Origin: Isoetes taiwanensis
Taxonomy: Eukaryota; Streptophyta; Lycopodiopsida; Isoetales; Isoetaceae
Assembly (NCBI GenBank): GCA_021234155.1
Contig: JAJEKV010000003.1
Coordinates: forward strand, 14,740,386-14,804,385
DNA: 64,000 nt
Direction of reading: 5' to 3'
Both the position numbers and the translations under genes were made by a program. The notes under the pieces are model-generated. The model made no database searches, had not been told where the DNA came from, and saw only the letters and a program-made list of their open reading frames with translations. How positions within the stretch are numbered: the stretch's first letter is position 1; every line of letters starts with the position of its first letter. This document shows positions 1,677 to 35,568 of the stretch, piece by piece.

Positions 1677-1820
1677 CCCCCCCTGCAACGTTGGTCTCTC
1701 AATAAAAGAGAACCAAAAATACAATACATAAAATGTCATATACAATTACTCAGAAGGTGACCAAGGATGCACACACCAAACATCCCCCATTGCAACCTTG
1801 GCCATGTGCCCGAATTAAAA
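1677..1820 (-). other. Copia polypurine tract and 3' internal end (minus strand)
   Basis: Read on the minus strand this matches 35440-35579: the stretch with GGTCACCTTCTGAGTAATTG, then a G-rich tract, then the LTR. It continues the minus-strand copia arm, which is interrupted at 1820 by the 11.2-kb element and resumes at 13005. Confidence 0.8.
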
Positions 1821-1841
1821 CATTAGAGCTAAAATGAGGTC
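1821..1841 (+). repeat. Left TIR of the 11.2-kb element
   Basis: Twenty-one bases starting CATTAGAGCTAAAATGAG, identical in reverse complement to 12984-13004. The sequences diverge immediately inside (TCATGTGAGCC versus AATTTGGTGCC). Confidence 0.8.
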
Positions 1842-2293
1842 TCATGTGAGCCTCATAAGAGAATAAGTTTTTTTTCCTCTTTTATTTCCACGTCATATGG
1901 GAGGGTATTAGTCAAACATGAGAGGCATTATTCTACCTTGATATTTTCAATTGATGAATCTCAAAAATGCGTTTAGAGCCGACCCACAGAGCCTATATCA
2001 TGAGGCCGCGTGTACAAAACATCCTCAAGCATATCAAATTCACATGCCTTAACAAAATCGAACCTGTCAATATCGATACATTTCGCATCCAACGTAGATC
2101 GAGTTACCAGGTAAGAGGCTAACTTAGATTTTCGTTTTTGATTCATTCGTATAGTAAGAACTTCTCCAAATCCCTCCGGCCAAATCCCACTCATATTCAA
2201 ATTCAAATATTTGAATTCCTCTCCCTCCTAGTTTGATCGGAATCGCCATATATAAGACATGGCTACTGAGAAAATTGTTTCCAATTTATCCCC
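1842..2293. other. Subterminal region and 5' leader of the transposase-like gene
   Basis: No protein is recognisable. A TATA-like CATATATAAG lies at about 2248-2257, just upstream of two in-phase-incompatible ATGs (2259 and 2294). The second opens the longer frame. Confidence 0.4.
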
Positions 2294-4847
2294 ATGGTCA
2301 AAATCGTCATTCATCTTCCTTCCGAGGAGTATGCTCAAACATGGAATAGACGAAACAATGGTTTTAAACAAAATGGTGTGGATGAAAACCATCTGCGTGC
2401 AACTGATGCTAAGCATGCTGATATTTGGGCTAAAGGAGAAATTTACCCTCCAAATCCCTTAACTGGAAAGTGTCCAGACTTCAAATCTGTCACAGGCCTT
2501 GTTACATTTGCATGCGAGGGCAAACAAGGTCTATTGGGATATTGTGAGAGCATGACCAGTTACTACATGCAATTGTCCTATCATAATTTGATGCTGCAAC
2601 AACAGATTTGAAGTTTAAAATTAAGCAATGGTGCTTCATTTAAAAAAATAGAAGATTGCAATTGCAAAATTTTGCAATTGAATAAGAGAATAGTCCAGCT
2701 TGAACAAGACGCTCAATTGATGCAATTTGTGATTAAGCAATCGGAAAGAGAAGGTGATCTAGCACAGGCTGAAGTGAAAAAATATAAAAAGATGGTTCTA
2801 TCATTGCAATCTAGATTAAAACGGTTGAAAAAAACAGGATTGGGATTGAGAGAGAGGAAGAAAAAGACAAAACCACTTGTTAAACTAAATCCAAGAGGTG
2901 GTGCATATTCAAGGAGAGTTTATGCTATGCGACAAGTCTTGAGTTTTGACGAGGATAGAGAGGAAATTCAAGATGTTGGGAGGTTAATAAATAGTATAGC
3001 AACAAAAGATGAACTTGTAGCCATGTTGGATGCACCATGCAATAGTGGCTTGAAGAAGATTGTGATTGATATGACAGTTGGAGAAATAGGCTCAAAAATA
3101 GATGTTGCACAAGTGCAAGGCATTTGCGATCAGGCAGGAATCAGTAGACAAGGATATAGGTTGCTTTTTAGGCCATTTCATAAGGCATTGAAATCAGTTG
3201 GCACAAACAGGAAAATTGTGCCAAGGCCTTATAGCTTGGACAAATTGAGGACAAGAAATAATACTAGTATTGTTGATATTTTAGGAGGCATGTGGTCAAT
3301 AGACTCTTCTCCACCAGCTCTAACGACTACTAATAAGAAGAAAAGCTCAATTGCTAATGATGTGATTGGGTTGCATTCTAGGAACAATTTGTGGCTTGAT
3401 TTAGAGAGTTTGTTGAAATTTATGGTTACGTACTATGATGTACATGAGACGGATGTTGATGGGCATTTAGAGATCTGTTTGAAACTTGATGAAATGGAAC
3501 ACATTCATAAAACAAAATATGAGAGAGTGTCATTAACATTCATGAATAGGGCTCTTTCACCAACTTACAAGGATCAAAGACAAAAGAAGAAGAAGGAAAG
3601 AGATTCAAGTTGGTTTTCTGTGCAATCCGAGGAGCACACATGGTGGCTTGGAATATTTCAGGTACATAAAGAAAATTATTCAGTTTTAAAGTGGGTATTT
3701 AACAAAACAGAAATTCCAGATAAGATTGGCATGTATAACGATGGGAAGAAATTGTATGTAGAAGGATTTGGCCCTTTTCATGTCAATTTCCATTTAGCTG
3801 CTGATCTAAAAACAGAGAAGGCTATGTTTAATGTGAAATCATCTGGTGCAAAGACATCACGGATGTGTTTGTTTTGCCTCTATACCTTGAAGGAGAAGCA
3901 AAAAGGCACTTCCAAAAGCACTCTATCATGTGATCAGCAGAAACCACCTGATAGACACCTAAAAGATGAGACATTTGATGCAATATTACCAATCCCATTG
4001 GATAGAGTACATATATGTACTCTTTCATGCACTTGTTAGGATAGTAGAAAAAATGATTTTCCACTCTGAGTGCTTCGTATGGAATATCAGAGATGAAAGA
4101 GAAAGAGAATCTGGGATAGAGAGAGTGCTCTCAGAAGCAGGGTTACATGGTGGAAAAGTAAAGTGAGAAAAAGACACAAAAAAGTCCGGAAATGGGAGAA
4201 GTTCAATCCCCGCGAAGGTGTCTCTTGGAGGGGATAAGGCAAGGCATTTTCTACTAAATGTTGAAAACAAGAAAGGCATATTTGAATTTGGTAGACAATT
4301 AGTGGAAGCGGAGAGGGATAGGACAGATGGAGCATGCGGAGAGGCAAGAAAGCATGCTGCATGGAATGCACTTTCAGATCTGAATTTACTTTTGCAGCAA
4401 CAGTCCTTCACGGAGGAGGATAAGAGAAGTTTCCACATTGTTGTAAATGAATTTACTAGTGCATATATAAAAGCATGGGGGGAGTCTGAGGTTACACATT
4501 ACATTCATATATTATATGCACACGGTCCATGGTTTGCTGAAAAGTATGGCAGTCTTGCTATCTGGAATACACAAGGGATGGAGAAATCTCATAAACAAGC
4601 AAAAATGGCATTTAATAGGAAGACTCAACGTGGGGGATGTTCTCTTAACGAGAAGTCCAATCCGTTAGTTCAAATGTTTCAATGGTTTTATAGACAAATA
4701 CTTCGTCGGCATGAGGAGAATTTGGCAACAAAATCTGCTCCACATGATGACAATGAATTAGCAGAGGCAGCACGAAAACGTAGAAGAGATGCATGGGAGA
4801 AATCAGATGCTAACATGAAATTAGCACAATGGAGAGAGAACAAGTAG
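2294..4847 (+). pseudogene. Transposase-like protein with coiled-coil N-terminus
   Basis: About 830 codons in three frame segments. From ATG 2294 the frame runs to a single in-frame TGA (2609-2611), then stays open to 4039. Reading shifts frame near 4030 (the HALVRIVEKMIF segment) and again to 4218-4847. In order: an N-terminal region, a coiled coil (residues of the type LNKRIVQLEQDAQL, about 2672-2850), a lysine-rich linker, a central region ending in a CLFCLYTL cysteine cluster, a segment like D-x-LH-x-LVRI, and a C-terminal block with H-x3-LYAHGPWFAEKYG and WNTQGMEKSHKQAK. The D..LH and QGxEK pattern resembles uncharacterised transposase-like proteins that I recall from cnidarians and seed-free plants; this is recollection, not a search. 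The TIR context supports a transposase role. Stop and frameshifts make it inactive as read. Confidence 0.55.
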
Positions 4848-16872: not shown

Positions 16873-19081
16873 ATTCGATACTAAAAGTGTATCATCAACA
16901 TAAAGCGCAATGAAAGTGAAGACAACACCAACTTTTTTATAATAAAGATTTTCATCAGTAGTAGTGGGTAAGTAACCATCAGAAATAAGAAATGCATGTA
17001 TCTTCTTATATCAAGCACGTGATGCTTGTTTTAAACCATACAGAGCTTTCCTTAATTTGCAAACCAAATTCTCTTGACTGTGACCTTATAACTATCAGAT
17101 TGTGCCATATAAATATCTTCTGTAAGATCTCCATTTAGAAATGTTGTTTTAACATCCATTTGATGAATATAGAGATTATGATTAACTGCAAATGCTAACA
17201 AAGCACGCACAGTGGCAAGACACACTACAAGTGAGAATGTTTCATGATAATCAACTCCAGCAATTTGAGAAAACCCTTTTGCAACCAACCTTGCTGTAAA
17301 TCTGTCAAAAGTACCATCTGCTTTATTTTTAACTCGAAAAACCCACTTACATGTTATAGCTTTACAACCAGAAGGAAGAGGTACTAAATCCCAAGTGCCT
17401 TTACTTATCAAAGAATGATATTCAGCATCCATTGCTTGTTGCCAATGTTCACGTTCATCAGAATTTAGAGGATCATGAATAGTAACAGGCTCAGTAACAG
17501 ACACAAAAGTATAATAATCACGCAAAGTAACTGGAGGACGCCGTCTAGTAATACGAGTGTCATGAAATTCTTGTTGAGACATAACTCTAGTGCAGAATTA
17601 TCTTCAGGTTATATAGTGTAATGATCATCTAGTGAAATAATATTCTCATGTAACTGATCAGATAAATCTTCATACTCTCCTCCAACACTATCAGGTAAAT
17701 CCGAGATATCAGGTAAAGTAGAAGGTTGATGTGACCGTACTTTCTCAATATCACTCTCATTGAAAATATTTGCATCAGAATACTCACGAAAATTTGATAG
17801 AACATCATGATCATGATCATTAGATTGCGAAGGAGATTGAATCATAACATTTTCATTAACAACAGTATCTCTATAGCAGCAAACACAACCTTTCCAGAAA
17901 CCAAATCAAATAGTCGATAGGCAGTTGCATTATGAGCATAACCTAAAAAGATAACCTTTTGAGCAACTGGCTGTAACTTAGTCCATTTCTCCTTAGGAAT
18001 ATAAGCATAAGCCTGAGATCCAAATACTCTAAAATGTTCAACTGTAGGCTTTTTTCCATGCCATGCCTCAAACGATGTTAAACCATCAACAGAAGAAGAA
18101 GATATACAATTCTGAACATAAACTGTTGTACTCGCTGCTTCAGCCCAAAACTTTACATCCAAACCAGAATGAAGTAACATACTTCAAACAGCATTTAAAA
18201 CAGTTCTGTTTTTACGCTCAGCAACTCCATTATGTTGTGGTGTATGAGGAACTGTACACTCTCGCAAAATACTAGCATGAGCACAAAAAGAATTAAACTC
18301 CTTATTTTTGAATTCACCACCATTGTCACTACGGATACTTTTCAAAGTCTTTTCCTTTTGTAATTCCACCATGACTTTCCATTTGCAAAATGTAGCAAAA
18401 ACTTCAAGTTTCTTCTTAAGTGCATAGATGAAACAATAACGTGAAGAATCATCAATTATCAGTAGAAAATAAATGGCACCTCCAAGTGACCGTGGTAAAG
18501 GCCCACAAAGATCCATATGAACCAACTTTAAGATAGATGATGCACGAGGAGCAACATGATTAAAAGGACGCCTACAAGGTTTATCAAGTATACATGCTTC
18601 ACAAGGCGCTAGTACGGCTCTTGAATCTATCGAAAACCATGCACAAAACCATGTTTTTTCATATGCAATAATACTGGAAAAGACGCATGACAAAAACGTC
18701 CATGCCACAAATCTCCATCAGAATTTCTTACAGTAAGTGCATAAATTAGATCATCTGTGATCTTATACTCATATAGATTGTGATGACGCATACTAGTACC
18801 AAGAATCAAGCCATCTTTTAAAAGATAACAAAAGAGTTCATCAAAGTAAATATGAATCCCAACATCAGTTAAGCGAGAAACTGAAAGTAAATGACGATGT
18901 AAGGCAGGTACATGTAATACACCACGGAGAAAATGAATCCCTGAACGAGCTTGTAATGGCAAATCACCAATTCCAAGAACTTGTTGGCGACTATCATCAC
19001 CCATATAAACATACTTCAAAACACGAAAAGGATGATAATTTCTAAGCAAAGATTTCTCAAATACCATGTGTTGAGTAGCAC
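16873..19081 (-). pseudogene. Copia pol (integrase and RT), minus arm
   Basis: Minus strand, from the second half of the split protease inward. It holds the HATQHMVFEK-type protease continuation, the GAG-pre-integrase HHCC region (HGRFCHASF, CEACILDKPCRRPF), the integrase core (HMDLCGPLPR, IRSDNGGEFKN, HTPQHNGVAERKNR), the connecting domain (FWAEAAST, VFGSQAYAYIPKEKW), and the RT N-terminus (WDLVPLPSG, CKWVFRVKNKADG, HQMDVKTTFLNGDL) with YVDD near 16893-16904. A TGA just after RTVLNAV (about 18185) also occurs in the plus arm. Frameshifts are present near 17590 and 18640. It is the mirror of 20043-21875 and 34069-34425. Confidence 0.9.
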
Positions 19082-20042: not shown

Positions 20043-21875
20043 GTGCTACTCAACACATGGTATTTGAGAAATCTTTGCTTAGAAATTATCATCCTTTTCG
20101 TGTTTTGAAGTATGTTTATATGGGTGATGATAGTCGCCAACAAGTTCTTGGAATTGGTGATTTGCCATTACAAGCTCGTTCAGGGATTCATTTTCTCCGT
20201 GGTGTATTACATGTACCTGCCTTACATCGTCATTTACTTTCAGTTTCTCGCTTAACTGATGTTGGGATTCATATTTACTTTGATGAACTCTTTTGTTATC
20301 TTTTAAAAGATGGCTTGATTCTTGGTACTAGTATGCGTCATCACAATCTATATGAGTATAAGATCACAGATGATCTAATTTATGCACTCACTGTAAGAAA
20401 TTCTGATGGAGATTTGTGGCATGGACGTTTTTGTCATGCGTCTTTTCCAGTATTATTGCATATCAAAAAGCATGGTGTTGTGCATGGTTTTTTGATGGAT
20501 TCAAGAGCGGTATTAGCGCCTTGTGAAGCATGTGTACTTGGTAAATCTTGTAGGCGTCCTTTTAATCATGTTGCTCCTCGTGCATTATCTATCTTAGAGT
20601 TGGTTCATATGGATCTTTGTGGGCCTTTACCACGGTCACTTGGTGGTGCCATTTATTTTCTACTGATAATTGATGATTATTCACGTTATTGTTTCATCTA
20701 TGCACTTAAGAAGAAACTTGAAGTTTTTGCTACATTTTGCAAATGGAAAGTCATGGTGGAATTACAAAAGGAAAAGACTTTGAAAAGTATCCGTAGTGAC
20801 AATGGTGGTGAATTCAAAAATAACGAGTTTAATTCTTTTTGTGCTCATGCTGGTATTTTGCGAGAGTGTACAGTTCCTCATACACCACAACATAATGGAG
20901 TTGCTGAGCGTAAAAACAGAACTGTTTTAAATGCTGTTTGAAGTATGTTACTTCATTCTGGTTTGGATGTAAAGTTTTGGGCTGAAGCAGCGAGTACAGC
21001 AGTTTATGTTCAGAATTGTATATCTTCTTCTTCTGTTGATGGTTTAACACCGTTTGAGGTATGGCATGGAAAAAAGCCTATAGTTGAACATTTTAAAGTA
21101 TTTGGATCTCAGGCTTATGCTTATATTCCTAAGGAGAAATGGACTAAGTTACAGCCAGTTGCTCAAAAGGTTGTCTTTTTAGGTTATGCTGATAATGCAC
21201 CTGCCTATCGACTATTTGATTTGGTTTCTGGAAAGGTTGTTTTATGCCGCTATCGAGATACTGTTGTTAATGAAAATGTTATGATTTAATCTCCTTCGCA
21301 ATCTAATGACCATGATCATGATGTTCTATCAAATTTTCGTGAGTATTCTGATGCAAATATTTTCAGTGAGAGTGATATTGAGAAAGTACCGTCACAACCT
21401 TCTACTTTACCTGATATCTCGGATTTACCTGATAGTGTTGGAGGAGAGTATAAAGATTTATCTGATCAGTTACATGAGAATATTATTTCACTAGATGATC
21501 ATTACACTATATCACCTGAAGATAATTCTGCACAATCCTCTAGAGTTATGTCTCAACAAGAATTTCATGACACTCGTATTACTAGACGGCGTCCTCCAGT
21601 TATTTTGCGTGATTATTATACTTTTATATTTGTTACTGAGTCTGTTACTATTCATGATGCTCTAAATTCTGATGAACGTGAACATTGGCAACAAGCAATG
21701 GATGCTGAATATCATTCTTTGATAAGTAAAGGCACTTGGGATTTAGTACCTCTTCCTTCTGGTCGTAAAGCTATAAAATGTAAGTGGGTTTTTCGAGTTA
21801 AAACTAAAGCAGATGGTACTTTTGACAGATTTAAAGCAAGGTTGGTTGCAAAAAGGGTTTTCTCAAATTGCTGGA
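20043..21875 (+). pseudogene. Copia pol (protease end, integrase, RT start), plus arm
   Basis: The frame opens ATQHMVFEKSLLRNYHPF and continues through the HHCC region (HGRFCHASFPVLLHI, CEACVLGKSCRRPF) and integrase (HMDLCGPLPR, DYSRYCFIY, SDNGGEFKN, HTPQHNGVAERKNR). A TGA at 20939-20941 (also in the minus arm) precedes the rest of integrase (FWAEAASTAVYVQN, FGSQAYAYIPKEKW). A CAA-to-TAA change at about 21287 is unique to this arm. The RT N-terminus follows (WDLVPLPSG, CKWVFRVKTKADG). At 21875 the 12.2-kb element interrupts it; RT resumes at 34069. Confidence 0.9.
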
Positions 21876-21907
21876 AACCATCATTCAATTAAATTGGGAT
21901 TATGTCT
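21876..21907 (+). repeat. Left TIR of the 12.2-kb element
   Basis: Thirty-two bases, AACCATCATTC...TTATGTCT, perfectly complementary to 34033-34064. Preceded by TGGA. Confidence 0.85.
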
Positions 21908-22125
21908 TAATTTTGGGATAAATTTTATATTGCACTTTTTTAGTAACTTTGTTAAATTCACTTTTTTAGTAACTTTGTTGCCCTTAGACTAGAATAGACG
22001 TTAACATATAATCACACACGGGAATATAAATTCACACCTTAACTTCAAATTACAAAATCATATATCATGAAACTCAAGTAGTACACAACTTTTATTAAAA
22101 GTGATTGATACATAGTAACTGAGAA

Positions 22126-25094
22126 TCATTTTTCCACCAACATCCCCAAGGATATGAGAACCTTATTCCTTACATCCTGAGGTATTGTAACTCTCGCTGT
22201 TTTACTAGGAATAGTTTTTGGAGTCCATGAGTACAATACGGTTTCAATGTCTAGCCAAAGATCAGGATCACTAGGATTTCTCCTCCACCTCTTTGTCCAA
22301 CAATCTGAATATCTTTCTTTATCTAAGACATTACTCAAACTGATGTCTTCGGACACCACCATTCCACGCGCACCTTATTGAAGTTAACATCACCTTCTTC
22401 TTTGCAAATATCTGAGATAGTCCATCCCAACCACACTGGATAGGTCTCTAGATCTGCTGGTTTTACTACTACAAATTGGTGGCACTCCACGTCAGTAGAA
22501 GGTTCATAACAATCCATGCCTAGATATTTTGGCCTATCCTTCTTAGGACCAACATAGTGTTTATCGATTGAGGAGGAGCATATGCCTTCACAATGCTACT
22601 AATGGTACCATCATCTTCACAAGACCAGCTAATATTTTCCACTTACTTTTAGGGAACCACCCTTCCAAAGAAATGCTTACGAGGATGTGTCTACCTCATC
22701 CAACAAGTTGATCACCTTCTTCCAATAATCTATCAATGCACGATTAGTCTCATCTCAATTAGTTTGCCAATGCTTGATGTAGTCATTGATGCCATCCTTA
22801 GTCAAGCCCAATTGCTTGACTTCTTCAGATTGGTTTTAGAGCTTTTGGTTGACCAGGGGGTATCATAGGCTTGCCATTTGCATCCCTCAAGGCCAAATTT
22901 CTGCCCCACCTCTCCACTTCTCCTCCTCCGGTCTCATTTTCCATTGCATGATTGGAATCCTTCTCTCACCCAAAAAGTGAATTGAAGAGGTCTAGAATGA
23001 CCTTCCATGTCGAGCATAACCATCCACAAAACTCTTCCAATCGGGCACTTCTTCTATGATAGATCCTATAGGAGATGGATTTGTACATCCATGAAATATT
23101 TCCAATAGCCCAGGGAAAGTTGGTAACCTGTCTGCGCCTCAATACATGACTATATTTTCCAAACAATGCATCCACATCCTCATGAGTATGTCCCATTAGG
23201 AACCCCAAATTGACTCTTTCAAAAATACCCACAAATGTTAAGTAGGATAGGAAAGAAAACATCCACCTATTCTTATTTTGACCAAAGACAATTATCTAGT
23301 TGCAAGAGGAGCTTTTGGGCAGGGATCTCGAGGTTTAGCACGAGATGTTGAAGCTCCAACATGTTCATTAGGTCCATTCCTCCTAAATCTTGCCTTGCTA
23401 AACTTTTCAATACTATTAGGGGTTCCATCCAACAATGCACTATGTAGTGCCCGGCTAGTCAGTAGGATCCTGTAGGTGACCATTGTAACCCTTCTCATAG
23501 TTTCTTAAACACCTCATGATACTCCCAATGTGAAAACTGGACCATCACTCCACAACTCTAAACCTAAAGGGCCATAATAAGTCCGAGACTGCCCATGCAA
23601 TATTGCCCCATCATTGAAATCAAGAAAGGGTATGATCTTCCACATGACTTAGGAATGTACTTGAATTGTGGAAGACAAGTCTTCGTTGGTCCATTTTATC
23701 ATGTATAATACATAGATAGTTATTAGGTTCCATTGCGTATAAGGTCCTCCACATCCAATAAGTTGATCTACATGATAGTTGATCTCATCATATGGTCCTT
23801 CATATGTTCCCTTATCTTTGCCCTTAGACTTGGTTGCAGTCTTATCTAGTGTCTCCTTCAAACTTAGCACATAAATTGCACTTGGCAAAGTTGTTTGAAG
23901 TTGCTATGGTCACATGCTTGAAATGCTTATTCCATAGCCTACTAAAACTGGCCGATATAGAGGCCACTCCAAGTTCCCCAAAGCAATGCATTTATTTCCT
24001 CTAATATGCTCTTCCGGGTACAATGGGATGGCAATCTCTTTTCAACAATAACTCTACCCTGTTCATCCTTCTTACTCTTATGTGGCATGTTTTCCGCATT
24101 GAAATCCACATATCTTTCAAATATTTCCTTTTGCAGCTATAGTTCTTGAGGTAGGCCTTACGGGCCAGTGTTCCCATGCAATGCAATTTTACTACCATTT
24201 TCATGTCTCTTTTGCCGGTTGTGCCAAGAAGAGGTTGGAATTCCATGTATAGCCATCCATGCTTTTGAACATATCCACTTTCCATTCAATGGGAATCTTT
24301 TCTTCTTTGATCTTTCATCCCAATTGCATAGCCAAATATGGTGTACATGAAATTCCTCCCGCTATCACACTTATGTTCCCGATATGTAGCTCTTGCTCCC
24401 ACCAACTCCTCTATTGTGAACATTCTAACACAAGAAGCCCAACAACATTCACCTCCTCTAACCTTCATCATAGCTTCGGAGAACAATCATAATCTGACTT
24501 GCATCTTTTGGTGGGATAATGTTTGAAAGTTGGAAGTGGCCTCTTGCTACACTGTGTGAACATTGTTGACAATGGTTCTACATCTATAGGAAACGTGTAG
24601 TTCCCCTCCAGTTGAATACTGTCCCTAGGCCATGCAACAATAGTTGGAACCTCTAGTTGCTTCACACAAGCTAGGCATTCTTGTTTGCTGAACCCTTTTC
24701 CTTCCAATTGTCATATAATTTTGAGATTGCCACACCTAACCTGTCCTCCCTAATCTTTCATCATTCACTTTGCATTGATAGGATCTGCTAGAACAATAAT
24801 CCCTTCTCCCTCTCAGCCTCTCTCATTGCATGCATGCAGGATCTTGACCTTTTTGTTTTTCCAATCGACCCGAGTATAAAGTACAATTTCCTTTCCTTTG
24901 GCATCATCCTTTTCATTTGAGGCCTTTTCCTTTCCTTTGCCATCATCAACATCATTTGGAGTCTTTTCCTTTCCTTTGCCATCATGAACATCATTTGAGG
25001 TATTTTCCTTTCCTTGGCCATCATGTTCATTAGTTGGGGATTTTTCCTTGCCTTGATCAGCATCATTAGGGGCTTTATTTTTAGCATTTTGCAT
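22126..25094 (-). pseudogene. DUF7869-like (putative transposase) gene, decayed
   Basis: Minus-strand segments in changing frames add up to one protein. The N-terminus (25094-24813) has a repeat of about 13 residues of the DGKGKEKTPNDV type. Next come a segment with ECLACVKQLEVPTIV, then a cysteine pair region (ECCWASCVRMFTIEEL, about 24430) like the C-rich head of DUF7869 proteins. A middle part has ENMPHKSK-type residues. The core motif GHTHEDVDALFGKYS (about 23165-23210) is the family signature as I know it. The C-terminal part (22517-22126) has VWLGWTISDICKEEG and LISLGMLVEK. At least four frame changes and stops are needed, so it is a pseudogene. Proteins with this signature are repeat-associated in many eukaryotes. 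A transposase role here is inferred from the TIR context. Confidence 0.6.
24888..25075 (-). repeat. 39-bp coding minisatellite (about five copies)
   Basis: Units begin TTTTCCTTTCCTTTGCCATC on the plus strand about every 39 bp. They encode 13-residue repeats of the type DGKGKEKTPNDV on the minus strand. The period is a multiple of three and the units vary without frame loss, which suggests that they expanded under coding constraint. Confidence 0.8.
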
Positions 25095-25380
25095 GCCATT
25101 GACCTAGAATGCATAAAATATATAGTAAGTTAGCATATCCAAATAACCTCTCAATAACATGTTCATAAATGAAAGCCTCATATGTCTTATTCTATTTGAT
25201 CATTCTATTTATATAATGGGATTCCCCAAGTTATTTTCCTCAACATTATATATAAATAAAACCCTCTACTTATTAGCCTTATAACTTGTATCCTATAATA
25301 ACCTTTGTAATAAATTTTAACCTTGTAAAAGGGATAACCCTTATGAGGGTTAACCTTAAAAGGTTAACTTAACCATTAAA

Positions 25381-25510
25381 GGGATAACCTTGGTATCCTA
25401 TAATAACCCTTATAATAAATTTAACCTTATTATTACAAGGGATAACCTTGGTATCCTATAATAACCCTTATAATAAATTTAACATTGTTATTACAAGGGA
25501 TAAACTTCGC
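25381..25510 (+). repeat. 58-bp tandem repeat, 2.2 copies
   Basis: Units start GGGATAACCTTGGTATCCTA at 25381 and 25439, with a diverged third start at 25497. They hold small inverted motifs (AAGGGATAACC/GGTTATCC). Confidence 0.85.
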
Positions 25511-26355
25511 GTCCTTAAAACAATTAACCCGTGCAATAAATTTTTTTCGGAAGTTATAATGGCGCGGTACAAAATTTTGAAAGCGCTTATTATTTCAAGT
25601 TAGCATTCGTTTTGAACTTTTCTCTCTCACTTTTAAACTTCCAATTCCGGGCATTCCAGCGCTTCCAATTTCTATCTTCTACTTCCAATTTCTTCTCGGC
25701 TTCTATTTGCTTCAATGCGCTTCTCGGCTTCTATTATCCGCTTTCAAACTTGGCTTTTACGCTTCAATCTAAACTTCTACGCTATCCGCTTTAAACTCGG
25801 CTTCTATACTTTTTTATATCTGTTTTTATCTGGCTTTCGGCTTCTACAATCTGTTTTTATCTGTTTTTATCTGGCGGCTTTCGAGTTTTTTCTTCTTCTA
25901 CAATCTTCGCTTTAGGGTTTTTATCAAAGGTTTTTTTTTCTAAAAGGTTTCTACTCGGCTTTTACGCTTTTACGCTTTAAACTTCGGCTTCTATATGCTT
26001 TTCGGCTTCTATATGCTTTTTTCGCTCAATACAAGGTTCTATACAAGGTTTGTAGGCTCTATACAAGGTTTTACGGTTTTTGGCTTTTCTGACTTTGAAT
26101 AACTTTGGTTTTTTGTGTTAAAGCTTCTCGGCTGCTATTGCTTTTTCTCCAAATTAGCTGCTATTGCTTTTTCTCGGCTTCTTAAGGCTTCTCGAATCAC
26201 TTCTTAAGGTTTCTCGGGTTAGTATTTACTGTTATTTACATAAAGTAGTTATTTTCCATAAAGCATGTTATTTACTTTTACATGCATCAGTTCTATTTCA
26301 TATCATATCTGTTCTCTATCATATCATATTACTCTATCTGTTCTATTTCATATCT

Positions 26356-26405
26356 GATCTATGATCTTGCTCTATGATCTAGATCATAGAGCAAGATCAT
26401 AGATC
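26356..26405. repeat. Perfect 50-bp palindrome
   Basis: GATCTATGATCTTGCTC... forms a 25-bp arm with no mismatch and no spacer. The centre is ATCT|AGAT. The arm itself repeats ATGATCT. Such perfect symmetry is unusual in old, mutated sequence. Confidence 0.9.
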
Positions 26406-26625
26406 TTCACTAGCTCTTCCTCTATCTGTTCTAAATAATGAACTAAAACAATGAACTAAATATTGAACTAAACAAGGAGTTATATTGAACTAAACAAGGA
26501 GTTAAACAAGGAGTAAATAAAGAACTAAACAATATCTAACTGGCTTTATATTTTGAATTACGCATTCTCGCATTCTCGCGCATTACGCATTATGTATTTT
26601 GTTAGAATAATATGTTGGAATGGGA

Positions 26626-26752
26626 GAAATCGCTTGGCGCATTTCTATTTTTGAGTTCGTTTTCCACTAGGTTAATCAAATCGCGCCCGGTAGCGTTTTA
26701 GTTGGCATTTCAATTTCATACGGCTCTATACAAGTCGCGCCCGGTAGCGTAT
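26626..26752. repeat. GC palindrome cluster 1 (three copies)
   Basis: AAATCGCTTGGCGCATTT (about 26628), AAATCGCGCCCGGTAGCGTT (26679) and GTCGCGCCCGGTAGCGTATG (26734). All lie in the putative intron just upstream of the acceptor at 26786. Confidence 0.8.
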
Positions 26753-26786
26753 GAAATAGATCTGTGCTAATTACTTTCTCTCGTTC

Positions 26787-27197
26787 TAGTGCCATGGATT
26801 TTCCTTATGCATGGACACCGGGCGGGTTCAAATACACTGGTGGTTCTAGTTCCACCGGGCGACCATCAACTCGACCCTGTACAAGATATTACTTGAGTGT
26901 CTTTGTTCAAAACGTTCAAAGAGAGTTGGAGAATCCATTAGACGGCTGTATCGGGGGCCATGGGTACACTTCCATCGCATCTATGGACATATCGGACTCC
27001 TCATGCTCTTAGTAAGGCTCATGCCAACAAATAAGTACAAGGATTTGATTTATAGTATCGGGGATCGATACAACACTCTCTGGTTTGGAGACTTCGACAT
27101 CCTCGGGAAAGATGAGGATCTGTCATATCGAGGGTGGTTCGAGGTGGGACTTCTTGGGATTAGGCGGATGAAGTGGGCACGGCCCGACATATTGTAG
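26787..27197 (+). pseudogene. Unknown exon(s) of the 12.2-kb element
   Basis: Opens after a splice-acceptor-like TTCTAG with ATG 26791 (MDFPYAWTPGGFKYTG). A frame change near 26945 is needed to reach YKDLIYSIGDRYNTLWFGDF and stop at 27195-27197. The total is about 135 codons. I do not recognise it. Aromatic-rich composition, the shared strand and the neighbouring palindromes tie it to the following gene. Confidence 0.4.
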
Positions 27198-27203
27198 AGA
27201 TAG

Positions 27204-27290
27204 AAAGAATTCGCGCTGGCGCATTTTGAGAAGAAGAAATGTACATAACTTTTTTGAATATGAATACAAACTTCGCGCTGGCGCAATTTT
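27204..27290. repeat. GC palindrome cluster 2 (two copies)
   Basis: TTCGCGCTGGCGCATTTTG (27210) and CTTCGCGCTGGCGCAATTTT (27271), shortly after the stop of the preceding frame. Confidence 0.8.
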
Positions 27291-27367
27291 GCACTATACT
27301 TTTCCGTCATTAGTTTATTTTTTTTTTTATATGCAATGTCGAAAACATTGAATCCTGTGATGCCCTC

Positions 27368-27443
27368 CAGCCAGTATGACCAACCCCAAGAAACTACATA
27401 TTTTCATTAATGTGTAGTTTCATGGGGTTGATAAGACTGGCTA
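27368..27443 (+). repeat. Imperfect hairpin, about 30-bp stem, 10-nt loop
   Basis: AGCCAGTATGACCAACCCCA pairs with the downstream arm ending TGGGGTTGATAAGACTGGCT. About four mismatches and a 2-nt bulge are spread along the stem. The shape is compatible with a small-RNA precursor or a tiny MITE. Flanks are unrelated. Confidence 0.6.
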
Positions 27444-27861
27444 AAGACCATCCGCGAAATTCAAAGTTCACAACATCACGCAGATGATATGATATATTCT
27501 TTTTTTTTGAATATCCAAATATACATACCTTTTTTGGGGCGTTCTTTTGGCCATGCTACAAATGTGCCCACGCTTTCACCAATTTGTATGCGCCACGGGA
27601 TGTCTTCTTGGAAGAGCCTCATCTTCATAATTGCGGTTTAGAATAGAAATCTTCTGACTGTTTCCAAGAGGAACACCATGACACATAGAACTTGGATTCA
27701 AATCTTCGATTTTACACAATCCTACTCGGCGCTTCAAGTTTGCTGTTAAAAGATAGCATTCTTCTCCGACACTGATAAAGAACCAGAATGCATTGTAAAA
27801 AATAGAGGACGAAAAATTGAGAACAAGAGAATGCATTCGAATTCACCATAGTTCAGCAGAC

Positions 27862-28012
27862 ATCGAATGGGAATTGAAGGCGGCTCGATCGAATGGATTG
27901 AAGGCGGCTCGATCGTCGAATGGGATCGAACGGATCTTGGGCGCTCTGATAGTCGATTGTTCTTGGGCGCTCTGATACTAGGAATGATCTTGGGCGCTCT
28001 GATAGTAGGTGG
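27862..28012 (+). repeat. Short tandem repeats in the 12.2-kb element
   Basis: Two copies of GAATGG(G/A)ATTGAAGGCGGC and three of TCTTGGGCGCTCTGATA, adjacent to each other. No reading frame is implied. Confidence 0.75.
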
Positions 28013-28733
28013 CCGATTAGGTGGTAGTAGATTGCCACATATGCGTTTCTTGAAATTAATAATTAATTGTTATCTTGAAATTGCACTAAAAAGAAAAACA
28101 CAATTTAAATTTGTAAATGAGCGGGACGGGCGGTTAATTAAGGCGGTATAAATTTAAAAGGACGCGAATTTGAATTCTGGTTGTAAATCGGCGGCCCTAG
28201 ATTATGAGCGATACATATAAGTTTAAACCAAAACCCCGATCTCATACTATCCGCACTTGCGCTTCTATGGCGTCTAGAGGATCTCGGCGGCCGAGGCGCC
28301 GTTGTAGAGGTGGGCGACGACTAAAGCACAAATCCCAAGCACGGAGGTCACTGAACAAGCGTAAAGTTTTGATCCAACAAAGCCTCCTCGTAATTGATCT
28401 GTTTTTTGTTTTGTAATTGATTTACGTGTCCCTTTTATTGTTAGGTTTCTAGGATGTTTTTCAACCTGTGTATTTTTACGTATGCGTGTCTCGTGTATTG
28501 TCTACCTTTCATATTGTTTTACGTGTCATTTCTAATTGCTTTTACTACCTTGTTTTGTGTGTTTTTGTTATAATCTTCTCCTTTACTCCGATATGTTTAA
28601 AGTTGGAACAATTCTCCATTTTGTATAATGTAGACCGTGTAAGTCTTTACTACGTATTCTCAGTTCTTTTGACAAGTCTTTTTGTAGCCTAGTATGTCTC
28701 TTATAAAAGAGAAGTGTCTGTAGGTCCCCTCTT

Positions 28734-28857
28734 AAGAACGCGCTCGGCGCGATTTATAATTATGAGTGGTTTTGGTTGTCTCTCGCTACTTTCCCTGTGT
28801 ACAATTTATGTTTTTGAAAGTAAGGCGTCTATGAAAACGCGCTCGGCGCGATTTCAT
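28734..28857. repeat. GC palindrome cluster 3 (two copies)
   Basis: AAGAACGCGCTCGGCGCGAT (28734) and GAAAACGCGCTCGGCGCGAT (28833), both inside the inferred intron 28390-28884. Confidence 0.8.
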
Positions 28858-30046
28858 TACTCACCACATGATTGTAACTTTCAGGATCTTCTAAAATGTG
28901 AAAAGAAAAGCAAAGCCTGCGCAGGGTCCAGGGACATCCGCAGAAAAAACCAAGAACGGATGAAGATGTATCAGTTGCAGATTTGGCACACGTTGTGACC
29001 ATTGACGATACGACCGAAATAATGAAGGCTCAGGTAGAGCCTCCATGTCCAGAAGAAGATCTACCAGAGGGCTCTGAATGGTATGTGGAGATCTTCAAGA
29101 CTAGCGGAAAGACAGATCTGATTTTCATGTCTAGAGTTAAGGAAACAGATCAAATGAAGAAACAAGGTATTCTCGATCACATGCGAAGAAACGGGGCGAT
29201 TCTTCTTGTTCCGTATTACTTGAAGCGGGTCGAGAAAAATAAAAAGTATTGAAGAAGTTAAATTACTTTGCGTGCTAGTTCCTTTAAAGAGACTGCCCTA
29301 AGAACGGATGAGGCCGCAGATAACCTCTTCAAATTTGGCTGGTCAGGTGGTGATCTATTGACACCAAAAAAAATATGTCAAGGTCTCTCAGCTGTGAGAA
29401 GAGCAATCAGTACAAGGCCGTCAGCTAGTCTGTACCTACAAGCTTTAAAGGAGAAGGAAGATGCAAGTTCTAGAGCCGTGGAAACACCCGGGCGTTCTAG
29501 GCATTACAGATATGACTAGTGATGATGACAAGGCGAGATGGTTAGAGGCCATGAGCAAACTCAAGAAATATCTTTGACAAGTATCCACTGGGCCTTAGCT
29601 TCGCATCCTATCCATGTCGGCGGGCTTTTCGTGTCCACGAAGGCTATGTTTGTCGTGAGAAGATTTGACAAGCGTACGCGCAATGGAAATAGTCGGCGGC
29701 ATGATAGAAAACCGGGGCGGGTGCCAATGCCGGCAGATGTGGTGCCTTTTGATATGAAGACGAAGAAGGTGTTGATGTGGAATAAACTTGAAGATTTAAC
29801 TGGCAACCTCGATATTCACTTCATGATAATAGATGGCCAGCATTCAGTGGAGGCGCAGAAGGTTTTGATCAGTCAAGCACAAAAAACTGGAAATCAGTTA
29901 TTCTATAGACTGTATTCAGTCAGAAATTGCCGATTCCTCAGTGGCTCCACAACAGCAGCAGAATTAGCCGAAATCAGCGCGCTACTGAATGACATGGGAA
30001 AGACATTCCTGTACAAAAGGTATTTTATGTTCCACACATAGCGTTC

Positions 30047-30194
30047 CAAATCGCGCCAGGCGCGTTTTATGTTGTTATTTGTGTGACGGATTTACAAGAA
30101 ACGCGCCTGGCGCGAATTCTTCATCATGAAGAAATCGCGCCAGGCGCGTTTCTTGTAAATACGTGATTAACGAAAACGCGCCTGGCGCGTTTTA
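30047..30194. repeat. GC palindrome cluster 4 (four copies, nested palindrome)
   Basis: Copies at 30047, 30097, 30131 and 30171, core CGCGCC(A/T)GGCGCG. Copies two and three are themselves mirror images within a 33-bp inverted repeat (30090-30160) with one mismatch and a short ATCAT-type loop. All lie in the inferred intron 30020-30250, whose 3' end has a CTAAC branch-like site and TTTTGCAG. Confidence 0.85.
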
Positions 30195-31569
30195 TATTGT
30201 TACTTTCACGACCTGTTTATTTTTTTTATCTAACGGCCCATATTTTGCAGTCCGGTATATGGGCGATTCTTGGCACGCCAGTAACCAATGGATCGAATAT
30301 GGAAAACCAATGCCGACCAGACAAAGGGCAATCTAAGAGTGCGAATTCAAATTACTAGAAAGGACACCGTGCCAAACCATATCTGAGGACAAGAACAAGG
30401 CCACTAGATCAAAGAAGAAAAAAGGGGATGCACAAGCTGGCACAGAAGAGCAAACGGTGCCAAAAGATGCCTGCAAGATTGTTTTTTCTTCTGACCAGGT
30501 ATGGGAAAAGTGGAACGAATTTTGGGACGCCTATTCGGAAAAGAAGTTGCCAGATTCGTATGGCAGGTTTCCTCCGCAAGATACGTCTATTTTTGATATA
30601 GGTATCACAGAAATGAGAAAGGCACAAGGATTGGATGATGCAGAATTAATCTCTGTTCTAGATAGTTGCATCAGAAAGGAAGTTATCTACAAGAAAACGT
30701 CTGCAGCAAAGCACTTGACATCTTTCGAAGATGCATGCGAATCGATAAAGAATATGAAAGTCCTGAAAAAAGCTGTTGGTGAAGAACTGCAAAGGCTCTC
30801 AGGAGACATGATGTTATCAGAGATAGGCTTAATGCAAAAGTACAACGTATCTAATGATGACATTAAGAAATATGTATTTTGGTCAAAAGATTTTGTGAAG
30901 CAGCAAAAGGCGAAGAATGTGGCAACTCTTAAGGGGATTCACACGAAAGTTGCGTCTGACCTAAAAAGAAAAGTTGCTTTGGTGAAGAAGACGGCAGTAG
31001 ACGAGTCTCCTTTTTTCTACAAGGTGTCCACTGGTTATAAGTGTGCCATGCCAGAGGTAGGTGAAGGGCCAACCGACATCACTCTATTTGTTCTTGATAG
31101 CCGTGGCACGAGATGGACACAGGATGATTACAGCACCTTCTTCAACACATGCAGTGGTTTGACGACTGAGATGCATTATACTATCGTGACAGTTTGCCAC
31201 TCCGACATTTCCTACGCATATGCACTAGCTGCTGCAAATGATGTCGAATGCATTAAAGTGATGAGGCAAGCAGTGATGATAGATGAAAACAAAGATAGTG
31301 AGTTTAGTACCGAAAGTAAGATCTCACATGTGCTAGTCCTTATGATAGCCATTATGGATGATAAAGAATATGAAAGACTCAAGGGGAAACCAGAAGGTGA
31401 GAAGATTGCTTGGCAGTGCTATCGGCTAGATGAACCCCTATTGAAGAATGTTTTTTATGTCGAATCAATTGCGAAGACAAAGGGAAAGGGACCGCAGATG
31501 TGGATGTGGACACAGACCGAAGAGGAAGAGGAAGAGGAAGAAGAAAAATGGATTCGACCCCGCCCTTAA

Positions 31570-33302
31570 TTCACCAATCAAGTATGAGCTCTTGACGGCG
31601 CATAAGGGGAGGCTGAATAAGTCACGGGTTTTCTTTGGCCCTTTCGAAGTTTTCTCGATTGAAGCCTTCGCCCGTTAGAGTCTACGTGTTGGGAGTTTCA
31701 TGTTGGAGGTTATGTGGGTGGAAGCTCTCGAAGCTAGCTAGGAAATGCCAAAGTGTGGTCTCGATGGTCAAGCCAAGGACTTCCTCGATATTTTTTCGAA
31801 AAGTGCTAGAGGTGGCACCTAGGGGTCCGCTAGGTAGTGCAAAAAATAAAGCTTCCAGCTCTAAGTCCGGCTTTTACCAGATCCGGCTGCAGAGCGGGAA
31901 GAAATGAGAAAGCATATAGAGGGCATAAAGAAGAATATCGACAAGCAACAAATTTAACTATGCGGCCGAGAGGCGTGCCTATCCTTCCAATCACATTGGA
32001 AAATCCGGCGAGAAGTGGATGTAGGTAACGCAAAGCGAAGAAGACAAAATCCTAGATGATACGGTGGATTCGAAAGCTCGAGTTAGCATAAAGAGTAATG
32101 AAGTATCAACCATAGTTCAAACACTAAGTGATGTGGTCATCACTTCGGCGAGACCGAAGGCAGTAGAGTAAAGCTCATCATTGCGGATGTTGAACAGAAC
32201 CGTAAAGGTATGTTATTCAAAGCGAAATGAAAATCGCGCCAGTAGCGATTTCAATTCTTCAAACAGCGAATTAATCGCGCCCGGTAGCGATTTCAATTAT
32301 TCCAACGAAATTGAAATCGCCAAGCCGCCGCGATTTCAATTTTCTTTCTCCTTGTCTCACAAGTGTGTGCTTTATTATTACGAGACCTAATCCGGTTTCC
32401 TCCAAAATTACGGTGTTCGATTTGAATGGAGTGCTCGCAAAACGTTACCTAAAGCACAATTTCCTTTATCATGGTATGAACGAAACCATTTGAGACATAT
32501 ACTGAAATGGGTATATCCGCGTCCATCCAAGGAGATGTTAGACCAAGCTTTCTTTTTATTTAGTTGTGCAATTTGGTCGTCGATGGAGAATAGAAATATC
32601 TGAGGAAGTTTTGAGAGTAGTTCCCGAGTTACATAGAGATTGGGCATCTGTTTGGGATCGAGCAAATGTAAGTCATTCAATAACCCAAAGGATCCTACAA
32701 AAAAAAAATATTTGTGAAATGCTTGAGCGACATGATGGATGACTTGGGCGCTTCGGAGAAGGAAGACATCATTATAGTTGATGATGACGCCTTGAAGTGT
32801 TGCTTCAATCGATCCACGATCACTAAATCCACCATCCTATCATCCCGAGGATTTTGACAAAGATGACTTCCTCGCCGTTTTGTCGGCATCTTGCAAGAAA
32901 TAGCTACTGAGGAAAAAGGTCGAAGAGATACAAACACTATACCCATAACTTAATCGGACAGGGAAATTGACAGGGACCTAGAGAAGATCGTTCTAGAAAG
33001 GGAACTTTTTGATATATATATATATGTATACAGAAATACACTTTCCAAAAAGTTTTGAATATGAAATATACTTTACACCAACCTCTTTCAATATATATTG
33101 TGTTCTTATATCAGCATTATTGGTTACGTATAATGTATTGTTCTTTTATATTACGTGTATGGTTTGCTATACTTGCAATAATTTGTATGTATATACCGTC
33201 AATAATTTAGGTGTCTATAAATACGTATGCATGAAATTGGCAAACCATCGGCTTCGGCTTCCGCCTTCTGCTTGTTATTATGGCACATTCTATTACCTGC
33301 CA
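31570..33302. other. Degraded coding/intron region of the 12.2-kb element
   Basis: Short plus-strand frames (FDPALNSPIKYELL, RVFFGPFEVFSIEAF) suggest eroded continuation of the preceding gene. A donor-like AAAG|GTATGTT at about 32207 precedes palindrome cluster 5. From 33000 to 33280 the sequence is A+T-rich with no supported frame. Confidence 0.4.
32229..32340. repeat. GC palindrome cluster 5 (three copies)
   Basis: GAAAATCGCGCCAGTAGCGA (32229), AATCGCGCCCGGTAGCGATT (32273) and GAAATCGCCAAGCCGCCGCG (32313). The stem AAATCGC/GCGATTT is constant while the loop varies. Confidence 0.8.
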
Positions 33303-33510
33303 GATGAACCACGCAGACCTCTGCAGGTGCCGCGAGCTAGAAATAGAACTTCAGGACTGGCTTGATGTCGTTGCTATGAATCCCGTCCGCTTCTATCCTG
33401 ATCCCTTTGATGTTGTAATCCATCTTATATGGAATCCAGAGCATGGTTTGTTCATGATCGACAGGATCTCAGGACCGCCTGCAGCGCCTGAGGACGATGA
33501 ATCTGATTAG
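33303..33510 (+). CDS. Small ORF of unknown function (68 codons)
   Basis: ATG 33303 (MNHADLCRCRELEIELQDWL) to a stop at 33508-33510, with an acidic tail PEDDESD. It follows TTACCTGCCAG, which could be a splice acceptor. It is then the last exon of the gene set instead of a free gene. Rich in D, E and W; I do not recognise it. It is uninterrupted, unlike its neighbours. Confidence 0.4.
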
Positions 33511-33823
33511 TTTTTGTAGTTTATGTTCTATTGTAATGCGTTATTTATGCCAAGCAAATCGCGCCACGCGCGATTTGAACCACGAAAATCTCTGTTTTGT
33601 AGCAACTTGCTTGTTGTTATTTACTCGTAAAGCTTTACAATTTCATTGTTTAGATTTCGTTTCGATTAGTTTTTAAAGTTTATGTTCCACTATAATACGT
33701 TATTTATGGGAATAAAATCGCGCCACGCGCGATTTGACCCTTCAAAATCTCTGTTCTGTAGCAACTTGCTTGCTGTTATTTATTCGTAAAACACTACAAT
33801 TTCAATGTTTAGATTTCGTTGTC
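33504..33823 (+). repeat. 160-bp tandem duplication with GC palindromes
   Basis: 33504-33663 and 33664-33823 are direct repeats (GATTAGTTTTT ... TTTAGATTTCGTT). Each carries one AAATCGCGCCACGCGCGATT palindrome (33556 and 33714). They form the 3' flank of the gene set, 210 bp from the right TIR. Confidence 0.85.
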
Positions 33824-34032
33824 GTCGGTGATTGTACGAATTAATAAGCAATTTCCTACTTTTTATATTGCCAACATTCTTTCATAATATGGGTCATTTG
33901 GACCGAATATTTGGATGACCTTGCATTTCAACATAAAATGCATCTTCCTAGCCCGAAAATGAACTCAGTGCAAAAGTGTGGTTAATTCAATATAATGGTC
34001 AATAAATAGCTTATACGGCGCGATTTTGGAAT

Positions 34033-34064
34033 AGACATAATCCCAATTTAATTGAATGATGGTT
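34033..34064 (-). repeat. Right TIR of the 12.2-kb element
   Basis: Reverse complement of 21876-21907 with no mismatch, followed by TGGA and then copia RT. A half palindrome GGCGCGATTTTGG lies just inside it (34017). Confidence 0.85.
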
Positions 34065-35340
34065 TGGAGTTGATTATCATGAAACATTCTTGCCTGTAGT
34101 GCGTCTTGCCACTGTGCATGCTTTGTTACGCATTTGCAGTTAATCATAATCTCTATATTCATCAAATGGATGTTAAAACAACATTTCTAAATGGAGATCT
34201 TACAAAAGATATTTATATGGCACAACCTGATAGTTATAAGGTTACAGGTCAAGAGAATTTGGTTTGCAAATTAAGGAAAGCTCTGTATGGTTTAAGGAAA
34301 GCTTGGTATAAGAAGATGCATGCATTTCTTATTTTTGATGGTTACTTACCCACTACTGCTGATGCAAATCTTTATTATAAAAAAGTTGGTGTTGTCTTCA
34401 CTTTCATTGCGCTTTATGTTGATGATACCATTTTAGTATCGAATGATCTTCCATTTCTTAATAAGTGCAAGGCCAACCTTGGAGCTGCGTTTGATACGGT
34501 TGATCTTAGTTCTATCAAATCTTGTCTTGGACTTCAAATAGAACGTCAAGAAGGTTGCATAAGATTGAGTCAACCAAAATATATTTCTGAGTTACTTGAT
34601 AAATATGATATGACTAATGCTAAACCTCAGTTAACACCATTGGGGCCTAATGTTAAGTTGACTAAGCAGATGTGTCCTCAAACAGAAGCCGAGCGTCTTG
34701 ATATGGCTAACTATCCATATACAAGTCTTGTTGGTGCTCTAATGTACTTAGCACATGCTACGAGACCAGATATAAGTTATGTTGTTAACACGTTGGGACA
34801 ATTTATGTCTAATCCAGGGCGTCAGCATTGGAATGCAGCTAAACGAGTTCTTCGCTATCTTAAAGGCACTATAAATTATGCTTTGACATATGCTCGTCAA
34901 GATAAAGGTTCTGATGGTTCACAGTTGGTTGGTTATACTGATGCTTATTGGGGAGGTTGCCCTGACATTTTTCGTTCCACAAGTGGTGCATGTTTCTTTA
35001 TACATCATTCTTTGATATCTTGGTACAGTAAGAAACAACATTGTGTTGCGGTGTCTACTATTGGAGCAGAATATGTTGCAGCTAGTATGGCAAGTAGAGA
35101 GTTGATATGGTTACGACGTCTACTTCAATCTTTTCAACAGGTTTTGATTAGCCCAACAGTTTTATATTGTGATAATCAAAGTGCTATTTCGTTGACTAAG
35201 GATGAGGTTTTCCATTCAAAATCTAAGCACACTATATTAAATTGGAAGTCAAGAAGAAGACAATTGTGTTACAGTATTGTCCTACAGATAATATGATAGC
35301 AGATATATTTACTAAAGCATTATCTACGGCCAAGCATTAA
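34065..35340 (+). pseudogene. Copia RT and RNase H, plus arm
   Basis: Continues the RT cut at 21875. A small frameshift near 34105 is followed by HQMDVKTTFLNGDLTKDIY, KLRKALYGLRKAW and ALYVDDTILVSND (catalytic YVDD about 34414-34425). Then come the thumb (LSQPKYISELLDKYDM), YLAHATRPDISYVV, and RNase H (DAYWGGCPD, AEYVAASMASRELIWLRRLL, LYCDNQSAISLTKDE). A frameshift at about 35230 breaks the C-terminal SKHIEIHYHYIK part. It is nearly intact otherwise. Confidence 0.9.
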
Positions 35341-35568
35341 GATTTTACTAGTCAGTTGCGGCTTCTTAATTCTTCTTCTACTTAGTTTTGTTTTGAAGGG
35401 TGCCACAGTTTTTTCTTTTGATTCCCACAAAAGTTTTTTATCCGGGCACATGACCAAGGTTGCAAGAGGGGATGTTTGGTGTGTGCATCCTTGGTCACCT
35501 TCTGAGTAATTGTATATGACATTTTATATATTGTATTTTTTGGTTCTCTTTTATTGAGAGACCAACGT

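Follow-up and report, generated by a model that had tools for sequence, protein, structure and literature searches.

The window analyzed here is a stretch of 64,000 nucleotides from the genome of Isoetes taiwanensis (assembly GCA_021234155.1, contig JAJEKV010000003.1, positions 14,740,386 to 14,804,385 of the forward strand). It contains a 12.2-kb DNA element at positions 21876..34064, which carries the gene of a DUF7869 protein on the minus strand and an accessory gene region on the plus strand. Both are enclosed by terminal inverted repeats (TIRs) of 32 bp at 21876..21907 (plus strand) and 34033..34064 (minus strand), which are identical with zero mismatches and begin with AACCATCATT. Directly outside of them the 4-bp target site duplication TGGA is found at 21872..21875 and again at 34065..34068. 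The window holds two copia arms in inverted relative orientation (16873-18748 versus 20376-21875 plus 34065-35564), and the element is present in only one of them. If its flanks are joined with a single TGGA, the resulting sequence (joined-flank positions 1-1876, junction at 1500) aligns unbroken to the opposite arm from 18748 to 16873 with 95.5% identity, and an exact 26-bp match to this empty site is located at 17236. The perfect TIRs, the duplication and the empty site thus confirm the boundaries that an initial annotation, made from the letters alone, had placed to the base. Next to the left TIR, on its inner side, lies a short direct repeat (21942 and 21968) that includes AGTAACTTTGTT and might represent a transposase-binding repeat.

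As the initial annotation had proposed, we searched the genome (1,658,258,908 bases in 1110 contigs) with the 100 bp at each end of the element, and for either end all 40 scored matches among those listed were 100% identical (first-look candidates: 1058 for the left and 900 for the right end). Nine paired copies fetched as a whole and the copy in the window all show perfect TIRs and a 4-bp duplication (10/10); the fully read copies span 11984-14182 bp, and the ten end-to-end copies are pairwise 88-96% identical. From 13 other left ends traced inwards a perfect right TIR was reached in ten cases, nine of them at 12.0-13.4 kb and one at 7.8 kb; wherever the left flank of such an element had been read, the duplication was 4 bp (9/9). 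The right TIR was not reached in C908d, which has a nested element inside, and in C907g and C907h. Overall 20 elements could be paired, with identical TIRs in all of them and a 4-bp duplication in all 19 for which both flanks were read, these 19 duplications being AT-rich without a fixed sequence. The 7.8-kb element, C412, is a derivative that has kept its ends and its duplication while much of the interior is gone. Copies with differing boundaries, or internal genes lying always outside of the TIRs, were not found. A chance or decayed repeat is ruled out by the copy number, the TIRs and the duplications. The element is therefore real, well bounded, multi-copy and no artefact, and it belongs to a high-copy family of a cut-and-paste DNA transposon. 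A virus or polinton was also considered: no viral family appeared among the Pfam matches of the element proteins, although no systematic search aimed at viruses was made.

Some copies carry additional sequence. The nested element in the type B copy C908d (L038, reverse complement 1780-4083; for the types see below) has a Myb/MADF-like and a DDE-nuclease-like open reading frame and is reminiscent of PIF/Harbinger, while the copy C333 (L027, L028) owes its length of 14182 bp to about 2 kb of extra sequence near window position 27119-27362, probably another nested insertion. According to the available text of the genome paper, the assembly was made from Nanopore reads (flow cell v9.4.1) and polished with racon and pilon (PMC8566536), so that sequencing errors may account for many of the frame breaks seen in repeats; in the element copies such breaks may be either error or real decay, the two being inseparable here.

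The main part of the minus-strand gene lies at 22126..25103 and is frame-broken in the window. In a tblastn search with 14 related proteins (P0001-P0014; one of them, P0012, from Branchiostoma) strong pieces were obtained from about 24310 down to 22129. The best relative reached E=2e-117, and the identity to P0001 was 31% across the searched 811 residues. The DUF7869 core at 22966..23295 (minus strand) matches Pfam PF25273 with E=3.6e-16 and 59.7 bits against a cut-off of 26, thereby passing the gathering score, and together with its invariant columns it includes the motif GHTHED, the glutamic acid of which is the predicted third catalytic residue. The second predicted catalytic residue is the aspartic acid of LQLDN, located just upstream of the core in a different frame, and the first is that of IIHDKMDQ in the segment 23680..23952 (minus strand), which aligns to residues 442-532 of P0001. 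In P0001 the three predicted residues correspond to D526, which is invariant, D664 and E703, the latter being adjoined by D704 and D706. All 14 relatives share the domain and the invariant D-D-E, and the predicted structure of the transposase appears to show the order of elements of an RNase H fold.

A probable first exon is located at approximately 27542..27776 (minus strand), where residues 20-81 or 30-81 of P0001 match five copies with E=1.0e-4 to 5.2e-4 and the window itself in pieces only (E about 0.5-0.9). This part of P0001 resembles a TNP1/En-Spm-like domain, known from CACTA-type elements, with E=6.6e-4 and 19.9 bits, slightly below the cut-off of 21. The long intron between the first exon and the main part (25400-26700) is the region richest in insertions and deletions across the ten copies. 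A Foldseek search with the predicted structure gave no significant match, a search of the PDB with the transposase sequence profile gave one chain at E=1.7 that we judged to be chance, and from 168 pattern matches to DUF7869 in viral contigs none was confirmed. Our literature search found no publication on DUF7869 and, among the matches listed, nothing relevant for GHTHED. The minus-strand protein is probably a DDE transposase, and the proposal of the initial annotation that it is the likely transposase is strengthened by the 14 relatives, the invariant residues and the model.

On the plus strand we found an exon at 28902..29252, an exon with the motif IIDGQH at 29529..30041, which is ParB-like by motif only, and a long main exon at 30337..31569 with an open frame of 410 amino acids and no family match. 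Past an acidic run the frame continues at 31520..32080, being broken in the window. It is followed by an NIF/FCP1-type phosphatase domain at 32400..32940 (PF03031; E=2e-8 and 34.5 bits against a cut-off of 21.8 for a frame-composite, thus passing the gathering score) and a last open frame at 33235..33510 without a Pfam match. These exons and the NIF domain may form one gene or two. The description of the gene blocks in the initial annotation holds, but both blocks are frame-broken in the window, and the phosphatase domain, the probable first transposase exon and the existence of two cassette types had been overlooked.

These types became apparent when the copies were compared in bins along the element. 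Type A comprises 11 copies including the one in the window and type B nine (C907b, C907d, C907e, C907f, C908c, C908d, C910a, C910b and C246); C412, C907g and C907h could be assigned to neither. The consensus sequences of A and B are 92-98% identical over 27765-28365, 48-78% up to 32565, 83-84% up to 33015 and 85-96% thereafter, where 27765 is the first scanning window with enough aligned sequence and one later scanning window with too little was omitted. The differing part, which we call the cassette, extends approximately from 28380 to 32950, and at its left edge near 28380 identity falls from 98% to 74% and 51% in successive 150-bp scanning windows.

For the plus-strand frames the proportions of nonsynonymous (pN) and synonymous (pS) differences were determined between consensus A (from 10/11 copies) and consensus B (from 8/9 copies), using in each gap-free block the frame that was open longest. 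The values are 0.061 and 0.795 for the first exon, 0.099 and 0.655 for the IIDGQH exon, 0.122 and 0.652 for the long exon, 0.233 and 0.655 for its continuation and 0.11 and 0.473 for the NIF domain, compared to 0.198 and 0.316 for the minus strand across the long exon as a control. The last open frame is nearly the same in both types (pN 0.015, pS 0.086). In the accessory gene the window differs from C908d at 59, 43 and 166 first, second and third codon positions (nonsynonymous distance dN 0.163, synonymous distance dS 2.85) and from C907e at 79, 50 and 189 with dS being saturated, while the two type B copies differ from each other at 33, 26 and 56 (dN 0.098, dS 0.292). Comparison of the two types thus shows the plus-strand gene to be under purifying selection. 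Against this stands the comparison within type A, where a codon-position bias was seen in 0/16 stretches (one of the two control stretches of this test was later found to hold the first transposase exon), so that the A copies resemble a neutral burst with errors added.

The transposase behaves differently from the cassette. Its main block could be read in one type B copy only, C907e (L055), in which its identity to the window is 94-98%, just as among the A copies, and pS in five stretches of this comparison is 0.09-0.29 as opposed to 0.47-0.80 in the cassette. Two cassettes that have diverged to synonymous saturation thus share a single transposase and a single set of ends, and this combination is most simply explained by recombination or by an exchange of the cassette among lineages of the element, from which A and B would have arisen with their common ends. 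Alternatively, A and B might be ordinary sister families whose transposases resemble each other due to an extreme constraint at the DNA level. We regard this as improbable, as it has to account for a transposase block no more different between the types than within A, for the far lower pS of this block and for the fall in identity at the edge of the cassette. In favour of sister families, the transposase block of type B was read through in that single copy.

A further alternative is that the plus-strand genes are captured host genes, a Pack-type cargo without any role for the element. NIF phosphatases are ordinary host proteins, and C412 shows that ends and duplication can be kept despite loss of much of the interior, both of which would fit such a cargo. 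We nevertheless consider it very improbable, because the plus-strand block lies between the same TIRs in 10/10 end-to-end copies and is present at least partly in 9/13 further right-hand parts (C907b-f, C908c, C910a, C910b and C246); in C908d the block is present and the right TIR was not found. In addition, the two types combine saturated synonymous change with a strong constraint on the protein, and for the long exon at least 104 matches were obtained genome-wide, 102 of 5393 candidates having been scored. Among those listed, 17 are free of stops with an open frame of at least 600 amino acids, the longest having 722 (one short second piece of a stop-containing match is not counted), and for 6/40 listed right-end matches a long-exon match begins at a distance of 3.5-3.6 kb from this end, similar to the distance seen in the window. 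The shared TIR context, the constraint between A and B and the genome matches argue for a long maintenance inside the element instead of a passing capture, and the plus-strand set does belong to the element, as had been proposed.

The kind of protein encoded by the plus strand was addressed by several comparisons. The motif IIDGQHS occurs in the window as well as in the B copies C907e and C908d, and the exon containing it matches no Pfam or NCBIfam profile. Apart from the NIF domain, the plus-strand exons showed nothing above chance against Pfam, NCBIfam, PHROGs and the PDB sequences. Among 5.8 billion proteins no homolog was found for a type A composite of 769 amino acids at E<=0.001 (best 8000 candidates by common words) or for residues 95-830 of a type B composite of 865 amino acids at E<=10 (7999 candidates). 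A local profile comparison with the methyltransferase-type enzymes E. coli YhdJ and five phage enzymes scored 18.8. The 20 column-shuffled controls reached at most 19.9 with a mean of 15.0, and the transposase alignment gave 16.4. A motif-I-like stretch is in register with YhdJ at a score within the range of the shuffled controls, and the expected DPPY position reads DSRG or DSRD. Comparison of the DGQH protein with the first 170 residues of a phage protein, which we take to be ParB-like, was not significant (E=0.46). From these sequence comparisons, neither the ParB nor the methyltransferase reading is statistically supported. The predicted structure of the 410-residue window exon alone was uninformative (mean predicted local distance difference test score 33), and in the literature we found, among the matches listed, nothing relevant joining DGQHR, or NIF and phosphatases, with transposons.

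The element also contains the CG-rich palindrome AAATCGCGCCnGGCGCGWTTT. Half-site words of it occur 15 times in the element and not once in the rest of the window, while 200 dinucleotide shuffles gave a mean of 0.26 and a maximum of 2. The densest cluster is located in an intron (30048..30193), further sites or half sites begin at 26680, 28746, 28845, 32233, 32274, 33558, 33717 and 34017, and a half site is located close to the right TIR. When two mismatches are tolerated in the 12-base core, each of the 20 paired copies shows 1 to 12 sites within the scanned terminal stretch, which reaches at most 6.5 kb from the right end, compared to means of 0.00-0.40 and a maximum of 3 in mononucleotide shuffles. 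Counted from the right end, the sites of both types cluster at about 345-505, 1510-1840, 3700-4150 and 5150-5990 bp, with some copies missing clusters, and the palindrome-bearing scanning windows are mostly just 48-63% alike between A and B (some of them including the fast-changing coding tail). The palindromes may be regarded as candidate binding sites. The words at 33558 and 33717 are spaced by 159 bp, so that the 159-bp stretch 33502-33660, which is common to the window and C112 and missing from 8/9 other full copies, looks like a tandem duplication.

Concerning the superfamily, CACTA/En-Spm elements are large plant elements with two genes, CACTA termini and 2-3 bp duplications. The weak TNP1/En-Spm-like N-terminus of P0001 recalls them, but membership was rejected, as the element has 4-bp duplications and termini that read AACCATCATT rather than CACTA. 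Sola elements, as described in the accessible part of PMC10741241, make 4-bp duplications, have TIRs of 11-1124 bp, are mostly 2-9 kb and in some cases more than 15 kb long, and are known in moss; the duplications found here are likewise 4 bp (19/19), and the TIRs and the length of 11984-14182 bp fall inside these ranges. The same source describes a DDD transposase, whereas the third residue here looks like E703. The closest published relative that we found is Sola1-1_Ec32 from the brown alga Ectocarpus, a giant transposon in which, as is the case here, an accessory gene lies on the strand opposite to the transposase, and its accessory protein combines a ParB-like domain with a predicted N4/N6 DNA methyltransferase domain; the authors suggest that proteins of this kind may bind the transposon that encodes them and modify it (PMC12477816, as far as available). 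Compared by description, Sola1-1_Ec32 is 21.5 kb and our element 12.2 kb long, and the methyltransferase has no demonstrated counterpart here, while the NIF domain, the cassette types and the palindromes of our element are not mentioned for Sola1-1_Ec32 in the available text.

Because the 4-bp duplication, the size, the opposite-strand accessory gene and the ParB-like motif match these descriptions, the element is likely a Sola (Sola1-like) giant transposon with an exchangeable accessory cassette. This placement is based on duplication length, TIRs, size and layout, Sola transposases having been compared by description. The statement of the initial annotation that no described superfamily matches the element is not supported in this form, as a 4-bp duplication (Sola, PMC10741241) together with an opposite-strand ParB-like gene (Sola1-1_Ec32, PMC12477816) has already been published, with ParB-like meaning the motif only in our case. 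A new superfamily outside of Sola, in which DUF7869 would be a DDE group of its own that happens to give 4-bp duplications, seems possible but distinctly less probable. It would agree with the literature search and the Foldseek search, which gave no DUF7869 paper and no significant match, and with the TNP1/En-Spm-like N-terminus of P0001, CACTA-type elements making shorter duplications; duplication length, size, opposite-strand gene and ParB-like motif, on the other hand, fit Sola and Sola1-1_Ec32.

In its mode of action, the element is moderately likely to resemble a giant transposon of the Sola1 type whose accessory protein binds the element itself. The DUF7869 protein would bind the TIRs and subterminal DNA and would cut and integrate through its DDE active site, with a stagger of 4 bp leading to the 4-bp duplication. 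ParB-type proteins bind palindromes, and by this likeness we propose that the plus-strand DGQH protein could bind the CG-rich palindromes, which are spread over the right half of the element and occur close to the right TIR, and thereby regulate, mark or help to assemble the DNA of its own element. The targets of the NIF phosphatase domain would be proteins of the host or of the element, and swapping of the accessory cassette between element lineages would have created the two types with their common ends. A more far-reaching version, which we consider rather doubtful, is an exchangeable self-recognition module, in which the DGQH/ParB-like (possibly methyltransferase-like) protein and its matching palindromes, located in its own introns and close to the right TIR, would enable either type to bind or mark the DNA belonging to it, A and B being divergent, swapped versions combined with a common transposase and common ends. 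If true, such a module would correspond, in a eukaryotic transposon, to a partition or immunity cassette.

In summary, DUF7869, a domain of unknown function, gains a concrete likely role as transposase within a complete element with defined ends and duplication. New here are the probable exchange of the cassette between A and B and the intronic palindromes, both of which would be unexpected to specialists. Giant transposons with a ParB-like accessory gene are described from brown, red and green algae in the available text of PMC12477816, and if the ParB-like reading is true, they would extend from algae to a land plant. The palindrome offers a testable target for an accessory protein whose function is merely conjectured in that text, and the A/B exchange points to accessory modules of DNA transposons being swappable like those of phages.

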